NCBI GenBank assembly: GCA_014860745.1 | Contig: JACZJC010000014.1 | Coordinates: forward strand, 1-62,390 | Direction of reading: 5' to 3' | Origin: Anaerolineales bacterium | GTDB taxonomy: Bacteria; Chloroflexota; Anaerolineae; Anaerolineales; Villigracilaceae | Length of the DNA: 62,390 bases | Shown: one piece after another, positions 1,554 to 8,771 of the stretch | How the letters are laid out: each line of letters opens with the position of its first letter | Numbering within the stretch: the stretch's first letter is position 1 | Made by a program: the position numbers and the translations under genes | Notes under the pieces: model-generated | The model's database searches: none | What the model saw: the letters and a program-made list of their open reading frames with translations, nothing else | What the model was told of the DNA's origin: nothing

Positions 1554-3623
1554 ATGACAAACGATATTCAACGACATGCCACTTTATTGAAAGCTGCGGC
1601 GCATGCCGCGAAGAACATCACCACTATTCTCGACCCGTATGAATTATTTCAACGCACCGTGGACATCATCTGTGATGAATTCGGTTTTTATTACGCAGGC
1701 GTATTTTTGCTCGATGATAAAAAACAATACGCGGTTCTACGGGCAGGCCGCGGCGAGGCAGGCAGGGCGATGATCAACGAGGGACACAAGCTCGCCGTGG
1801 GCGGGAACTCGATGATCGGAGCTTCGATTGCAAATCGTCAGGGGCGCATCGCTCTGGACGTTGGGCATGAGGCGGTTTTCTTCGAGAATCCGCATCTGCC
1901 GAAAACGCGCTCCGAGATGGCGTTGCCGTTGATCGTCGTTGACGATGTCATCGGCGCATTGACGGTTCAGTCCACTGAAGAAGCCGCCTTCCACGATGAA
2001 GATATCGCCGCCCTGCAGACCATGGCAGACCAGCTTGCGATTGCCATTCAAAATTCCAATTTGCATCGCCAGGCCGAACGCCGCTCGCGTTTGCTCAAAG
2101 CCGCGAACCGCGTGGGCAAGGAAGTCACTTCCATATTAGATCTGGAGAAATTACTTCCGCAGACTGTGAACATTATCTGCGAATCCTATGGCTTGTATTA
2201 TGCGGGTGTCTTCCTTTTGGATGTAGCGGGCGAGTATGCCGTCCTCCGTGCTGGCTATGGCAAGGCAGGCAAGGCTATGGTGGCGGAAGGACATAAATTA
2301 AAAGTCGGCACCGACTCAATGATCGGTGCATGCATCGCTATGGGTGAAGCGCGCATTGCTCTCGATGTGGGCGAGGAGCATGTGCATTTCAAGAATCCGC
2401 ATTTGCCGCATACCCGCTCTGAAATGGCTTTGCCTCTTATTTATGGCGGCAAGGCTTTGGGCGCGGTTACTATCCAAAGTTCGGAAGAGCGCGCCTTCAG
2501 CGAGGATGACATCACCACCCTGTTGACGATGGCAGAACATCTTGCCGTGGCGATCAACAATGCCCGGTTGATCGATGAACTCAAGGAAGCTCATAGCGAA
2601 ATCCTGCGCAACAAAGTTTTCGAAGCGCTCACCACCGCCTCCACCGAAGCCATTCACTGGATCGGCAACAAAACGCTTCCGATTTCACTGACGGTTACCC
2701 GCCTGCGCGAAGAGATTGCCGATGGGAAGGTGGATATAGAATCGTTGAAGGAAGACCTCGATATGATCTCTGAAAGCGCCGCCCAGATCATTCAAGTGAA
2801 GGAACAATTAATTGGCGCTGTGCGTGAAATGAAGCCGCGCCCCATTCTCATCGCGGATGTGCTGCGGACCGCCGCCCGCCAGCGTGGAATTTCTGAAAAT
2901 ATGCTCAAGGTCAAAATTGACCCCGCCGCCGAATACGTGATTGCCGATAGTACCCAGCTCACGCGCGCGCTTGGCAATATACTGCAAAACGCATCGGAGG
3001 CAGGCGCAAAGTCTCTTGTGGTGAGCGTGCATCCCACCGAGGAACGCGGCATTCTTGAGATCGATATCGAAGATGACGGTGCAGGTATGGACGAGGAAAC
3101 CATGCAGAAGGCATGGTCGCCGTTCTTTACCACGCACGGCGTGGCCCATCATGGACTGGGCCTTCCCGCGGCCATGCATGTTGTCTCCCAGTCACAGGGA
3201 CGCATTGCCCTGGTCAGTGAGCGGGGCAGGGGAACAACCGTCGCCATGTTCATGCCGCGGGGAGTGGTCAACAACTCCCAGGTCCAGGCGGGAGGCGTGA
3301 AGAATATACTTCTGATCGACGATAACGATGATTGGTCAAAACTCTTTGTAGATCTGCTCAAGGATTCAAAGATCAAATTAACGCAGTCTGTGGATCTGAA
3401 GAATATCCCTGCTGCCGATTTAATTCTCGTCGATGAAGACATCGCCTCCATTTCCCTGACCGATGTCCAGTCTGCCCTTTCAAAAGCAGGCCTCGCCGCG
3501 AAGACCGTGATTCTAACCTCGGCGATCAATCCCGAACGCGTGACGAAATTCCTGCGCGATGGCGTGAAAGATGTAACTGTAAAGCCGTATTCTGCAAGTG
3601 AAGTAAGTGAATTGTTGAAGTAG
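1554..3623 (+). CDS. hybrid histidine kinase: GAF-GAF-HK-receiver
   Basis: Soluble hybrid sensor kinase of 689 residues. Two closely similar GAF domains (about 22-175 and 185-345) share the motifs YYAGVFLLD, RAGxGxAGxAM and NPHLPxTRSEMALPL, so they look like an internal duplication. A DHp helix follows with EAIHWIGNK (His near 368), the same motif as in the kinase at the window start. The ATPase domain has LGNILQNASEAG, DDGAGM and a reduced G2 box (HHGLGLPAA). The C-terminal 105 residues form a receiver-like domain (LLIDDNDDW, LVDEDIAS, VTVKPYS). The ATG has aaaggaa upstream. Without transmembrane segments it should sense a small cytosolic ligand or redox state through GAF; the ligand is unknown. 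Confidence 0.9.
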   Translation: MTNDIQRHATLLKAAAHAAKNITTILDPYELFQRTVDIICDEFGFYYAGVFLLDDKKQYAVLRAGRGEAGRAMINEGHKLAVGGNSMIGASIANRQGRIALDVGHEAVFFENPHLPKTRSEMALPLIVVDDVIGALTVQSTEEAAFHDEDIAALQTMADQLAIAIQNSNLHRQAERRSRLLKAANRVGKEVTSILDLEKLLPQTVNIICESYGLYYAGVFLLDVAGEYAVLRAGYGKAGKAMVAEGHKLKVGTDSMIGACIAMGEARIALDVGEEHVHFKNPHLPHTRSEMALPLIYGGKALGAVTIQSSEERAFSEDDITTLLTMAEHLAVAINNARLIDELKEAHSEILRNKVFEALTTASTEAIHWIGNKTLPISLTVTRLREEIADGKVDIESLKEDLDMISESAAQIIQVKEQLIGAVREMKPRPILIADVLRTAARQRGISENMLKVKIDPAAEYVIADSTQLTRALGNILQNASEAGAKSLVVSVHPTEERGILEIDIEDDGAGMDEETMQKAWSPFFTTHGVAHHGLGLPAAMHVVSQSQGRIALVSERGRGTTVAMFMPRGVVNNSQVQAGGVKNILLIDDNDDWSKLFVDLLKDSKIKLTQSVDLKNIPAADLILVDEDIASISLTDVQSALSKAGLAAKTVILTSAINPERVTKFLRDGVKDVTVKPYSASEVSELLK

Positions 3624-6176: not shown

Positions 6177-7301
6177 ATGAAAAAAAATACCTTGAAATTT
6201 GTACCCTTGTTTTTCATCCTTGCGCTGTTTCTTGCGGCGTGCGGAAATGCCGCGGAGGCCACACCTGCTCCCGCGGAAATTATTCCCTCGAATGAAGTGG
6301 TGGCAGAAGGACGACTTGAACCTATCCATGCCGCGAATCTGACCTTTCAGGCGCGTGGTGTCGTGGAGGATGTTATCGTAAAGGCTGGGGATACCATCAG
6401 CGAGGGAGATGTACTCGTCCGCCTGGCAAATGCGGGCGGGGCCGAGGCGCAAGTTGTCATTGCCCAGAACGCGTATGACCTGCTGCTCCGCAATGAAAGC
6501 GGTGACCGTGCCAAACTTTGGCAGGCGTATATGGATGCGCAAATTATCCGCGCAGAGGCGGAGAAGGAATGGGAGGGCGTGAATGTGGATGACATCGACG
6601 ACCGCATTGAAAACCTCGAAGCGGATGTTGAAGACCGCAGGGCCGATCTCAAAGATGCGCAGGATGAATTCGATAAATACAAGGACCTCAGCAAAGATAA
6701 TTCCAAGCGTAAGACTGCCGAGGATGATCTCGAACAGGCGCAGAAAGATTTGAACCAGGCCTTGCGTGACTTGGAAGAGGAAACCCGCAGCCGCGATGAA
6801 GTGTATGCGGCATACGAGGCAGCGCTGGCCACGGAAGTCGAAACCAAGTATCAATACGAGATTAGCCTGGATGGCCCCAATGCCGATCAGTTGACTTTGG
6901 CAAAGGCCCAGTTGGATGCTGCAAAGGATAGCCTTGCGAATTACGTCATCACCGCACCTTTTGGCGGTGTGGTGGCGGATGTAAATGTAAAAGTGGGCGA
7001 GCAGGTCGGCACTGATACCCGCGCTGTAAGCCTTGCAGATTTCAGCATGTGGATCGTTGAAACCACCGACATCACCGAACTGGAAGTTGTGAAATTAAAT
7101 ATCGGCCAGAAGGTCAGCCTCATCCCGGATGCCCTGCCCGACCTCGAACTGAGCGGTGAGGTGATCGAGATAAGCAATGCCTACACCGAGCAGGGCGGCG
7201 ACATTTTTTATACCGTCACCATCCGTGTCAAAGAGGGCGATCCGCGCCTGCGCTGGGGGATGACTGTGGAAGCCGTATTTTTAGAACAATTGAGTGATTG
7301 A
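6177..7301 (+). CDS. efflux membrane-fusion lipoprotein (HlyD/MacA-like adaptor)
   Basis: Lipoprotein of 374 residues. The signal peptide ends in a lipobox LAAC (Cys22), followed by a short Thr/Pro/Ala linker. A first biotinyl-lipoyl half (VEDVIVKAGDTISEGDVLVRL, about 60-80) leads into a long charged coiled-coil hairpin (about 100-235, rich in DLxxAxxEL heptads). The second lipoyl half (ITAPFGGVVADVNVKVGEQV, about 260) and beta-barrel strands follow. This is the usual order of periplasmic adaptors for ABC exporters. It pairs with the permease upstream. The final codons overlap a good sigma-70 promoter for the downstream riboswitch array. Confidence 0.9.
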   Translation: MKKNTLKFVPLFFILALFLAACGNAAEATPAPAEIIPSNEVVAEGRLEPIHAANLTFQARGVVEDVIVKAGDTISEGDVLVRLANAGGAEAQVVIAQNAYDLLLRNESGDRAKLWQAYMDAQIIRAEAEKEWEGVNVDDIDDRIENLEADVEDRRADLKDAQDEFDKYKDLSKDNSKRKTAEDDLEQAQKDLNQALRDLEEETRSRDEVYAAYEAALATEVETKYQYEISLDGPNADQLTLAKAQLDAAKDSLANYVITAPFGGVVADVNVKVGEQVGTDTRAVSLADFSMWIVETTDITELEVVKLNIGQKVSLIPDALPDLELSGEVIEISNAYTEQGGDIFYTVTIRVKEGDPRLRWGMTVEAVFLEQLSD

Positions 7302-7326
7302 AAATAAGGCTGAAAAATGCAATAAT
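7298..7326 (+). promoter_or_regulatory. promoter of the GEMM riboswitch array
   Basis: TTGAAA (7298-7303), a 17-base spacer, and AATAAT (7321-7326). Each hexamer differs from consensus by one base. It overlaps the stop codon of the adaptor gene and would start RNA near 7333, just before the first aptamer. Confidence 0.65.
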
Positions 7327-7340
7327 GAAAGTGCTCCGAT

Positions 7341-7422
7341 AAAGAGCTACACCGGGGAAACCCCGGTGGCGCAAAGCCCCGAACCTAAAGCTGAACTGAG
7401 CCAGGGTTGCCAGGGCTGCCGA
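7341..7422 (+). promoter_or_regulatory. GEMM / c-di-GMP-I-like riboswitch aptamer 1
   Basis: A GAAA-capped stem accggg/cccggt (7351-7366) is followed by the conserved ggcgcaaagcc (GCAAAG at 7371-7376), then cctaaag as the tetraloop-receptor side, a second stem and the closing gggctgccga. The order stem, GCAAAGCC, CCTAA, stem, GCCG is that of the Vc2-type GEMM-I aptamer. First of three tandem copies. Confidence 0.83.
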
Positions 7423-7425
7423 CAA

Positions 7426-7509
7426 AAGCAAAACCGCCAAAAGGCGGCGGCGCAAAGTCAGAGCGTCTAAAACCAGTGAAAATTCTGGTCAGGACCGACC
7501 GACTACCGA
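7426..7509 (+). promoter_or_regulatory. GEMM / c-di-GMP-I-like riboswitch aptamer 2
   Basis: It opens with agcaaaaccgcc, has the hairpin ccgcc-aaaa-ggcgg, the core cggcgcaaagtc (GCAAAG at 7452-7457), gtctaaaaccag pairing with ctggtc, and ends gactaccga. The core lies 81 bases after the core of copy 1. Copies differ widely in stem sequence while keeping loops and core, as expected for functional aptamers rather than recent duplications. Confidence 0.85.
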
Positions 7510-7510
7510 A

Positions 7511-7594
7511 AGGCAAAATCAGGGAAACCTGATGACGCAAAGTCATGGGTCTAAAATCATGTTTTATCTGCGATCATGACCGCCAGACTGCCGA
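7511..7594 (+). promoter_or_regulatory. GEMM / c-di-GMP-I-like riboswitch aptamer 3
   Basis: It opens with aggcaaaatcagg, has the GAAA-capped hairpin atcagg/cctgat (7518-7533), the core gacgcaaagtc (GCAAAG at 7537-7542), gggtctaaaatcatg pairing with gatcatgacc, and ends gactgccga. The core lies 85 bases after that of copy 2. The terminator hairpin begins 15 bases beyond the end, so this copy is the one placed to control termination. Confidence 0.86.
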
Positions 7595-7608
7595 AGAGCA
7601 AACCTCTT

Positions 7609-7647
7609 ACAGGGACGACCGAACGCTGGGTCGTCCCTGTTTGATTT
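7609..7647 (+). terminator. hairpin terminator / expression platform after GEMM array
   Basis: Perfect 12-bp stem acagggacgacc (7609-7620) with ggtcgtccctgt (7629-7640) and an 8-base loop, followed by ttgattt. The U-run is weak but the stem is strong. It separates the riboswitches from ruvB. Confidence 0.7.
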
Positions 7648-7683: not shown

Positions 7684-7714
7684 TTATCGTTAGACTCTAC
7701 CCGCAGGGTATAAT
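7684..7714 (+). promoter_or_regulatory. promoter of ruvB, probably giving a leaderless mRNA
   Basis: TATAAT at 7709-7714, only 7 bases before the ATG at 7722. A -35 is poor (ttatcg or ttagac nearby). No Shine-Dalgarno sequence is present, so transcription would start almost at the start codon. Confidence 0.5.
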
Positions 7715-7721
7715 CGCCGCT

Positions 7722-8771
7722 ATGAGCAAATCCCCGTCTCCTTCGACAGGCTCAGGGCGGACTCGGCCCCTCGACCCAGAATCCAAACCTGATGACCGCG
7801 TGGATAATGCCCTGCGTCCACAAAAATTGGGCGATTTGATCGGGCAGGATCAAGTAAAAGAGAATCTATCCATTCTCATCGATGCCGCGCGGCACCGCAG
7901 CGAAGCGTTGGATCATGTTTTGTTTTATGGGCCTCCCGGTTTAGGCAAGACCACACTTGCACACGTGTTGGGCAATGAGATGGGAGTCAACGTTAAAGTG
8001 ACGGCGGGTCCTGCCATCGAGCGCGCAGGCGACCTGGCTGCCATCCTCACCAACCTCCGCGCCGGGGACGTGATTTTCATCGACGAAATTCACCGCCTTG
8101 GCCGTGCCGTGGAAGAAGTACTTTACCCCGCCATGGAAGATTTTGCATTGGATATCGTCATTGGCAAAGGTCCCTCGGCGCGTTCCATTCGTTTGAAATT
8201 GCCGAAGTTCACAGTGGTTGGCGCGACGACGCGTTTGGCATTGGTCACAGCTCCGCTGCGGGCGCGTTTTGGCGCGGTCTATCGCTTGGATTATTATGAG
8301 ATCGAAGCGATGAAGAAGATCGTCAAGCGCGCTGCGGGGATGTTGAAAGTCAGCGCGGATGAATCGGGCATCGATGAGATGGCGCGCCGCGCGCGGGGGA
8401 CTCCGCGGATTGCGCTGCGTCTTCTGCGCCGTGTTCGGGACTATGCCCAAGTCCGTGCGGATGGAGTCATCAACCAAAAGGTTGCGAAAGAGGCGTTGGA
8501 TCTTTTGCAGGTCGATCCGCTCGGCCTGGACGATGTGGACCGCCGCGTTTTGAAAACCATCATTGAAAAATACAACGGCGGACCCGTCGGACTGAACACC
8601 ATCGCCGCATCCATCAGCGAAGAACAGGACACGATCATGGATGTGGTCGAGCCGTATCTTTTACAGCTTGGCTTTTTGGACAGAACTTCGCAGGGCCGCA
8701 TGGCAACCAGATCCGCTTATGAACATTTGGGGTATACGTACACTGGGGATGGCCAGCAGAGATTGTTGTAG
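7722..8771 (+). CDS. ruvB: Holliday junction branch migration ATPase RuvB
   Basis: Hexameric AAA+ motor that drives RuvA-bound Holliday junctions in recombination and repair. 349 residues, close to the family norm. The typical start of the fold ([11 protein letters not shown], about 32-42) is followed by Walker [10 protein letters not shown] (about 69-77), Walker B with DEIH (about 122-125), sensor motif GATTRL and a C-terminal winged helix ending in GYTYTG. Residues 5-20 are extra compared with most RuvB proteins and are encoded by a repeat-like palindrome (7739-7777). ruvA and ruvC are absent here; DUF2905 and queA downstream are frequent ruvB neighbours. Possible control comes from the upstream GEMM array by read-through or from its own promoter. 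Confidence 0.96.
7739..7777. repeat. dispersed-repeat sequence inside ruvB coding region
   Basis: The bases cttcgacaggctcagggcgg followed by actcggcccctcgaccc match the style of the intergenic CGACAGGCTCAG/TCGA palindromes. It is in frame and encodes a Ser/Thr/Gly/Arg/Pro-rich stretch near residues 6-18 of RuvB. Confidence 0.6.

Follow-up and report, generated by a model that had tools for sequence, protein, structure and literature searches.

Three c-di-GMP-I aptamers closed by a single helix form a probable free-standing RNA gene in Anaerolineales

Within a 62,390 nt stretch of DNA from an Anaerolineales bacterium (hereafter, the window), three GEMM-I aptamers lie between a promoter-like site and a terminator-like hairpin, and a single predicted helix (P1) closes all three. 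We favor, with moderate confidence, the reading that this unit is an autonomous, free-standing RNA gene of ~300 nt that would bind c-di-GMP and most likely act in trans; the free-standing status taken alone is probable. Riboswitch aptamers are habitually taken as switches of the next gene; here, with promoter-like site, structure, and hairpin conserved while the neighbors change, the RNA would instead have c-di-GMP itself as its target. New here are the single closing helix, the free-standing look, and the succession of A, A, and G at position 20 of the three aptamers.

An earlier sequence-only reading had proposed three consecutive GEMM aptamers, and searches with the Rfam c-di-GMP-I model (RF01051) bore this out; the closing helix, the bases at position 20, and the conservation among relatives lay outside that reading. 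On the plus strand, slot 1 (7335–7423), slot 2 (7417–7510), and slot 3 (7502–7595) scored 45.4, 52.9, and 75.8 bits, respectively, all above the 35-bit gathering score that is the Rfam cut-off. E was 1.1e-05 for slot 1 and 4.2e-13 for slot 3 with the window as search space, and 2.7e-9 for slot 2 with the genome as search space. Slot 2 was missing from the cmscan tables with RF01051, presumably through overlap removal, and also from a default-filter search with R1, a covariance model made from 23 aptamers with slots 1 and 2 left out of the training set. R1 gave 43.2 bits for slot 1 and, for slot 2, 35.9 bits with filters off or 63.2 bits in the genome search. The GCAAAG cores begin at 7371, 7452, and 7537, exactly where that reading had placed them. 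A GAAA loop is present in slot 3, and AAAA replaces the GNRA loop in slot 2. The aptamers abut head to tail within 7334–7595, and the segment 7298–7650 folds with a z score of −5.68, none of 100 shuffles being equally stable. In an alignment of 55 arrays (A5), the core bases, with roles and Vc2 numbering as we take them to be, were kept almost throughout: for slots 1, 2, and 3, A47 in 55, 54, and 55 arrays, C92 in 50, 53, and 54, C44 in 54, 55, and 55, and G83 in 51, 54, and 55.

For A5, the assigned structure took slots 1 and 3 from their Rfam alignments; slot 2 was placed by hand, and the closing helix and hairpin were added. Over this whole structure, 93.0% of 4,320 cells pair, and double changes occur in 60 of the 82 pairs. 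Cells with double changes numbered 450 versus 131 in shuffles, a value that none of 500 shuffles reached, and at most 81 when partners were slid. P2 and P3 have double changes in every slot, the weakest helix being P2 of slot 2 (80% of cells pair). P1b is nearly invariant, with double changes in one slot 3 pair, and is thus little informative. One hand-drawn slot 1 pair (columns 87 and 92) was rejected as wrong, with pairing in 5.6% of cells.

The closing helix joins 7331–7336 to 7596–7601 (both plus strand), with five pairs and one mismatch in the window. It contains 22 double-change cells in A5, compared with 6.4 in shuffles (0/500) and at most six when slid; two of five measures were unexceptional, namely the four pairs with double changes (85/500 shuffles) and the seven pair types (365/500). 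Seven arrays from other genera and families were added to the 55 of A5, and in this extended set every one of the 62 arrays can form four or more consecutive pairs, and 49 can form five or more. The helix takes forms that include GCUC/GAGC, GCACUU/AAGUGC, GCACUC/GAGUGC, GCAUCC/GGAUGC, and ACGCUC/GAGCGU. All 17 distinct five-letter types pair, whereas in 2,000 shuffles the number averaged 10.0 and never exceeded 15; G–U pairs and a one-letter shift were permitted throughout, shuffles included, and the independent events are fewer than 17 because the strand types stem from few clades. RNAduplex over long flanks was too loose for judging this helix, and covariation and shuffle tests were used instead. 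By free-energy folding, the closing helix is part of the minimum free energy structure in the window, as it is in 28 of the 55 arrays; P1b probabilities, calculated without ligand, are mostly low.

The distance from C93 to the first P1b pair of the next slot is six or seven letters between slots 1 and 2 and four or five between slots 2 and 3 across the 55 arrays. Because only four to seven letters separate neighboring aptamers, inner P1 stems or separate platforms are excluded by space. An architecture of three aptamers, one closing helix, and one hairpin is well supported by these comparisons of predicted structure. The sequence-only reading had mentioned a triple array in Bacillus thuringiensis, which resembles the present one in having three c-di-GMP-I aptamers in series. 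Bc3-5 of B. thuringiensis CT-43 is a triple-tandem c-di-GMP-I riboswitch in the 5′ UTR of cspABCDE and is described as three complete, independent riboswitches, each with its own P1 stem, that use a common terminator-type mechanism (PMC4759541). In the array, by contrast, the aptamers abut and share one closing helix and one terminator-like hairpin, and no target gene is constant. A review of tandem riboswitches counts c-di-GMP-I aptamers in 347 doublets and 12 triplets, and its Table 1 apparently places c-di-GMP-I under several expression platforms (PMC9481103). According to the same review, the tandem glycine riboswitch likewise has adjacent like aptamers on one platform, for which cooperativity was proposed, but it differs in ligand and aptamer class, usually has two aptamers, and has target genes in cis (PMC9481103).

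A promoter and a terminator of the array's own had also been proposed from the sequence. Both sites are present, as consensus matches. The promoter-like site, TTGAAA-N17-AATAAT with TG before the −10, spans 7298–7326 on the plus strand (−10 at 7321–7326) and overlaps the end of an HlyD-like gene. The terminator-like hairpin (7609–7640, plus strand) has 12 pairs, and its arms covary; it is followed by TTGATTTAAT, a modest U-tract. In the region, two promoter-like sites were found versus 0.4 expected, and five terminator-like sites versus 1.1 expected. Of 58 anchored arrays, 55 are best fitted by a 17 nt spacer and three by a 16 nt one, and 37 have AATAAT as the −10; these figures describe the layout and are no independent test, because the anchor itself demanded TTG and an AAT-like −10. 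In A5, columns 322–345 hold at least four T per eight letters soon after the closing helix in 34 of the 55 arrays; the closing helix could itself act as a terminator stem.

The array is widespread among relatives of the host. Across 152 genomes of the family, a DNA search recovered it with E of 2.1e-53 or better in 42 of the 57 that belong to the genus; the remaining 15 of the genus had E of 2.8e-10 or weaker, or no match. Eight of these 15 are <90% complete, and four of the seven that are at least 90% complete (G012, G015, G024, and G038) have no RF01051 match. We read the array DNA in all 42 genomes of the genus (G020 in part only) and in 20 genomes from other genera of the family (G070 being cut at a contig end). 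When R1 was applied with filters off to stretches upstream of ruvB, 27 of 49 contained three slots and three more held partial arrays cut by the edge. In other families of the order, R1 found three slots in L375, L376, and L388, three with an insertion in L377, two in L382 (the third was recognized by eye), and two in L378, with a doubtful middle one (12.1 bits, E 0.7). These order-level arrays were selected among the hits that a single divergent array, used as query, gave across 400 genomes of the order, and they therefore give no frequency at that level.

A three-core pattern scan of named genomes returned at least 117 stretches, each checked with R1; six matched (L247, L255, L287, L307, L312, and L352), and the others were chance occurrences. 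The records of L247, L307, and L312 are titled Chloroflexi bacterium, and the scan points to a likely phylum for the window, Chloroflexota, rather than to a distribution. A complete array of this kind also occupies L287 2780–3280, in a record titled Chthonomonas calidirosea MAG, which looks like a mislabeled or misbinned contig. L255 1–320 and L352 181–440 hold further closely spaced GEMM arrays or doublets, L255 being another kind of array. Another family of the order (L380, L381, L386, and L390) has longer GEMM arrays with other closing sequences and, it appears, three to four slots; a gene that by eye resembles lactate/malate dehydrogenase lies 3′ of those in L380, L386, and L390, and in L381 (2564–2781) the array end recurs as an inverted copy at the contig end, probably an assembly artifact. 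The open-licence literature searched yielded no paper on c-di-GMP riboswitches of this sort in Chloroflexi or Anaerolineae.

The genes on either side of the array change. In the window, a gene for an HlyD/RND-type membrane fusion protein (6177–7301, plus strand; PF13437, PF16576) lies upstream, outside the RNA, and ruvB (7722–8771, plus strand; PF05496, PF17864, PF05491; TIGR00635) lies downstream. We tallied the next gene by hand at 60 array loci, 57 of them readable, excluding short frames that overlap the array or are antisense to ruvB; for each type named below, a single representative was identified, and the others were assigned by eye. The next gene is ruvB at 33 loci, MBOAT followed by an AlgX-like gene at eight, a REC-ATPase gene at four, and another same-strand gene at three. 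At the remaining nine it is convergent: a xanthine-dehydrogenase-like molybdenum subunit gene at five, a DnaJ-domain gene at two, purA at one, and an unknown gene at one. The conserved same-strand downstream target that marks a cis riboswitch was thus not found, with ruvB at 33 loci set beside other same-strand genes at 15 and convergent genes at nine. Purine genes (purA, guaB, and 8-oxoguanine deaminase) adjoin the array repeatedly in other genera (L164, L165, L168, L170, and L177), perhaps through local synteny only.

The tie to ruvB that the sequence-only reading had drawn was not supported as a regulatory one. In the window, a TATAAT belonging to a promoter-like site of ruvB (7709–7714, plus strand) ends 7 nt 5′ of the ATG at 7722, and all 53 readable ruvB orthologs (five of 58 were unreadable) have a perfect TATAAT that precedes the ATG by 6 or 7 nt. 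The readable orthologs comprise 39 with an array in the sequence examined or upstream of it and 14 without, four of the latter (L075, L078, L080, and L107) coming from genomes in which the family DNA search found no array. This TATAAT, present with or without an array in front, suggests that ruvB is transcribed separately as a leaderless mRNA. As a general target, ruvB was rejected on the changing and convergent next genes together with this TATAAT, and the array, kept in related bacteria while the neighboring genes change, probably does not control ruvB.

A broader cis-regulatory explanation is that the three aptamers share one transcription-termination platform and control whichever gene follows, be it ruvB, MBOAT/AlgX, or REC-ATPase. 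Read-through control is possible at the 48 of 57 readable loci where the next gene lies on the same strand, and the terminator-like hairpin is suitably placed 3′ of the array. MBOAT/AlgX genes would suit control of the matrix by c-di-GMP, which is a role expected of that messenger. We nonetheless think this explanation improbable, if the most serious of the competitors, given the convergent next gene at nine loci, the TATAAT that ruvB carries of its own, and the prediction that in the window the closing helix forms together with the terminator core, with which it has no overlap. The convergent loci invite another proposal, in which read-through past the hairpin would produce an antisense RNA to the convergent gene, and among riboswitch families the antisense tendency is strongest in the c-di-GMP riboswitches (PMC9943018). 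Such loci make up nine of the 57, however, and involve at least four different genes; we judge antisense action very unlikely. Least likely of all is a 3′ untranslated element of the upstream HlyD/ABC exporter operon. The promoter-like site does overlap the stop codon of HlyD, and most loci of the genus have an HlyD-like gene upstream, but in other genera the same promoter–array unit follows guaB, a histidine kinase gene, a gene that by eye resembles an ABC permease, or others.

Trans action of a free-standing RNA is the most likely reading because the neighbors change and are sometimes convergent. We suppose that the array would be transcribed on its own, from the promoter-like site to the hairpin, and that each module would bind a cyclic dinucleotide, most likely c-di-GMP. 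Since all three aptamers share one P1, the binding events may help one another and lock the RNA into a single compact bound form; the shared helix would be a simple way to let three like aptamers bind cooperatively. In trans, the RNA would serve as a store or buffer of c-di-GMP, for which it would have to be highly abundant, or else as a small RNA with activity gated by the change to the bound form. A more specific version, in which an order-wide trans RNA joins A20 and G20 aptamers into one cooperative unit through the shared helix and works as a buffer or ligand-gated RNA rather than as the riboswitch of any gene, is held tentatively, at somewhat less than an even chance.

The store function has a precedent in merRNA of Bdellovibrio bacteriovorus, a noncoding RNA that contains a c-di-GMP riboswitch, is followed by no conserved open frame, and was proposed to be an intracellular store of c-di-GMP (PMC3627812). 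At 445 nt it was measured to be massively expressed, and its report found no conservation outside Bdellovibrio (PMC3627812). It is mentioned once in a later paper (PMC11323537) and, as far as the text of the literature searched goes, is the sole free-standing c-di-GMP riboswitch RNA found there. Like merRNA, the array lacks a conserved downstream gene, here as judged from comparison of neighbors; they differ in that the available text does not describe merRNA as three aptamers in one helix. The array would make the idea of a merRNA-like store testable in a second lineage.

Position 20, which we take to be the base preceding the GC of P1b in Vc2 numbering, differs among the slots. In the window it is A in slots 1 and 2 and G in slot 3; slots 1 and 2 thus carry the A20 of GEMM-Ib, and slot 3 the G20 of the c-di-GMP subtype. 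Across A5, A20 occurs in 44 of 55 arrays in slot 1 and 51 of 55 in slot 2, and slot 3 has G in 41, C in nine, A in four, and a gap in one. Outside the arrays, 23 of 25 GEMMs from eight genomes have G20; the other two have A, and both are first members of doublets. The array has the fold and core of c-di-GMP-I (GEMM-I, RF01051) aptamers, and the A20 of GEMM-Ib, but differs from both in sharing P1 among three aptamers and in mixing A20 with G20 (or C20) in one RNA.

This pattern raises the question of a two-ligand sensor with cGAMP in slots 1 and 2 (A20, GEMM-Ib) and c-di-GMP in slot 3 (G20), an arrangement that would be compatible with a free-standing RNA and that we judge unlikely. A change at the ligand-contacting pocket base marks the c-AMP-GMP riboswitches (PMC9481103), and both the slot-specific bases and the G20 of the non-array GEMMs accord with this; that base nevertheless tunes selectivity and is no hard filter (PMC9262584). 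It also drifts, with C or A in 13 of the 55 third slots. Enzymes that make cGAMP (Hypr) are marked by aspartate to serine at the GGDEF site. The host has 23 GGDEF hits, and all 18 in which the motif is readable keep the aspartate (five are unreadable there); a search for SMODS, alone among the CD-NTase families, gave no hit in the host. We rejected cGAMP as the main ligand on this lack of a synthase sign in the 18 readable GGDEF hits and in the SMODS search. Because base 20 tunes selectivity, readable GGDEF domains keep their aspartate, and SMODS gave no hit, c-di-GMP appears the likelier ligand in every slot, with slots that carry A20 perhaps more relaxed in their choice.

The host genome contains other GEMMs. 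A doublet with a linker of ~80 nt lies at 2027–2115 and 2197–2287 of L119 (G000:C8), and similar doublet spacings, many ~170 nt apart, recur in other genomes. A filters-off search of 21 loci revealed no middle aptamer in these doublets, which were rejected as hidden triples. In L121 (G000:C29), three single GEMMs with short P3 and GCGA/GTGA loops lie ~1.75 kb apart, at 3580, 5337, and 7074, and perhaps represent repeated genes with one riboswitch apiece.
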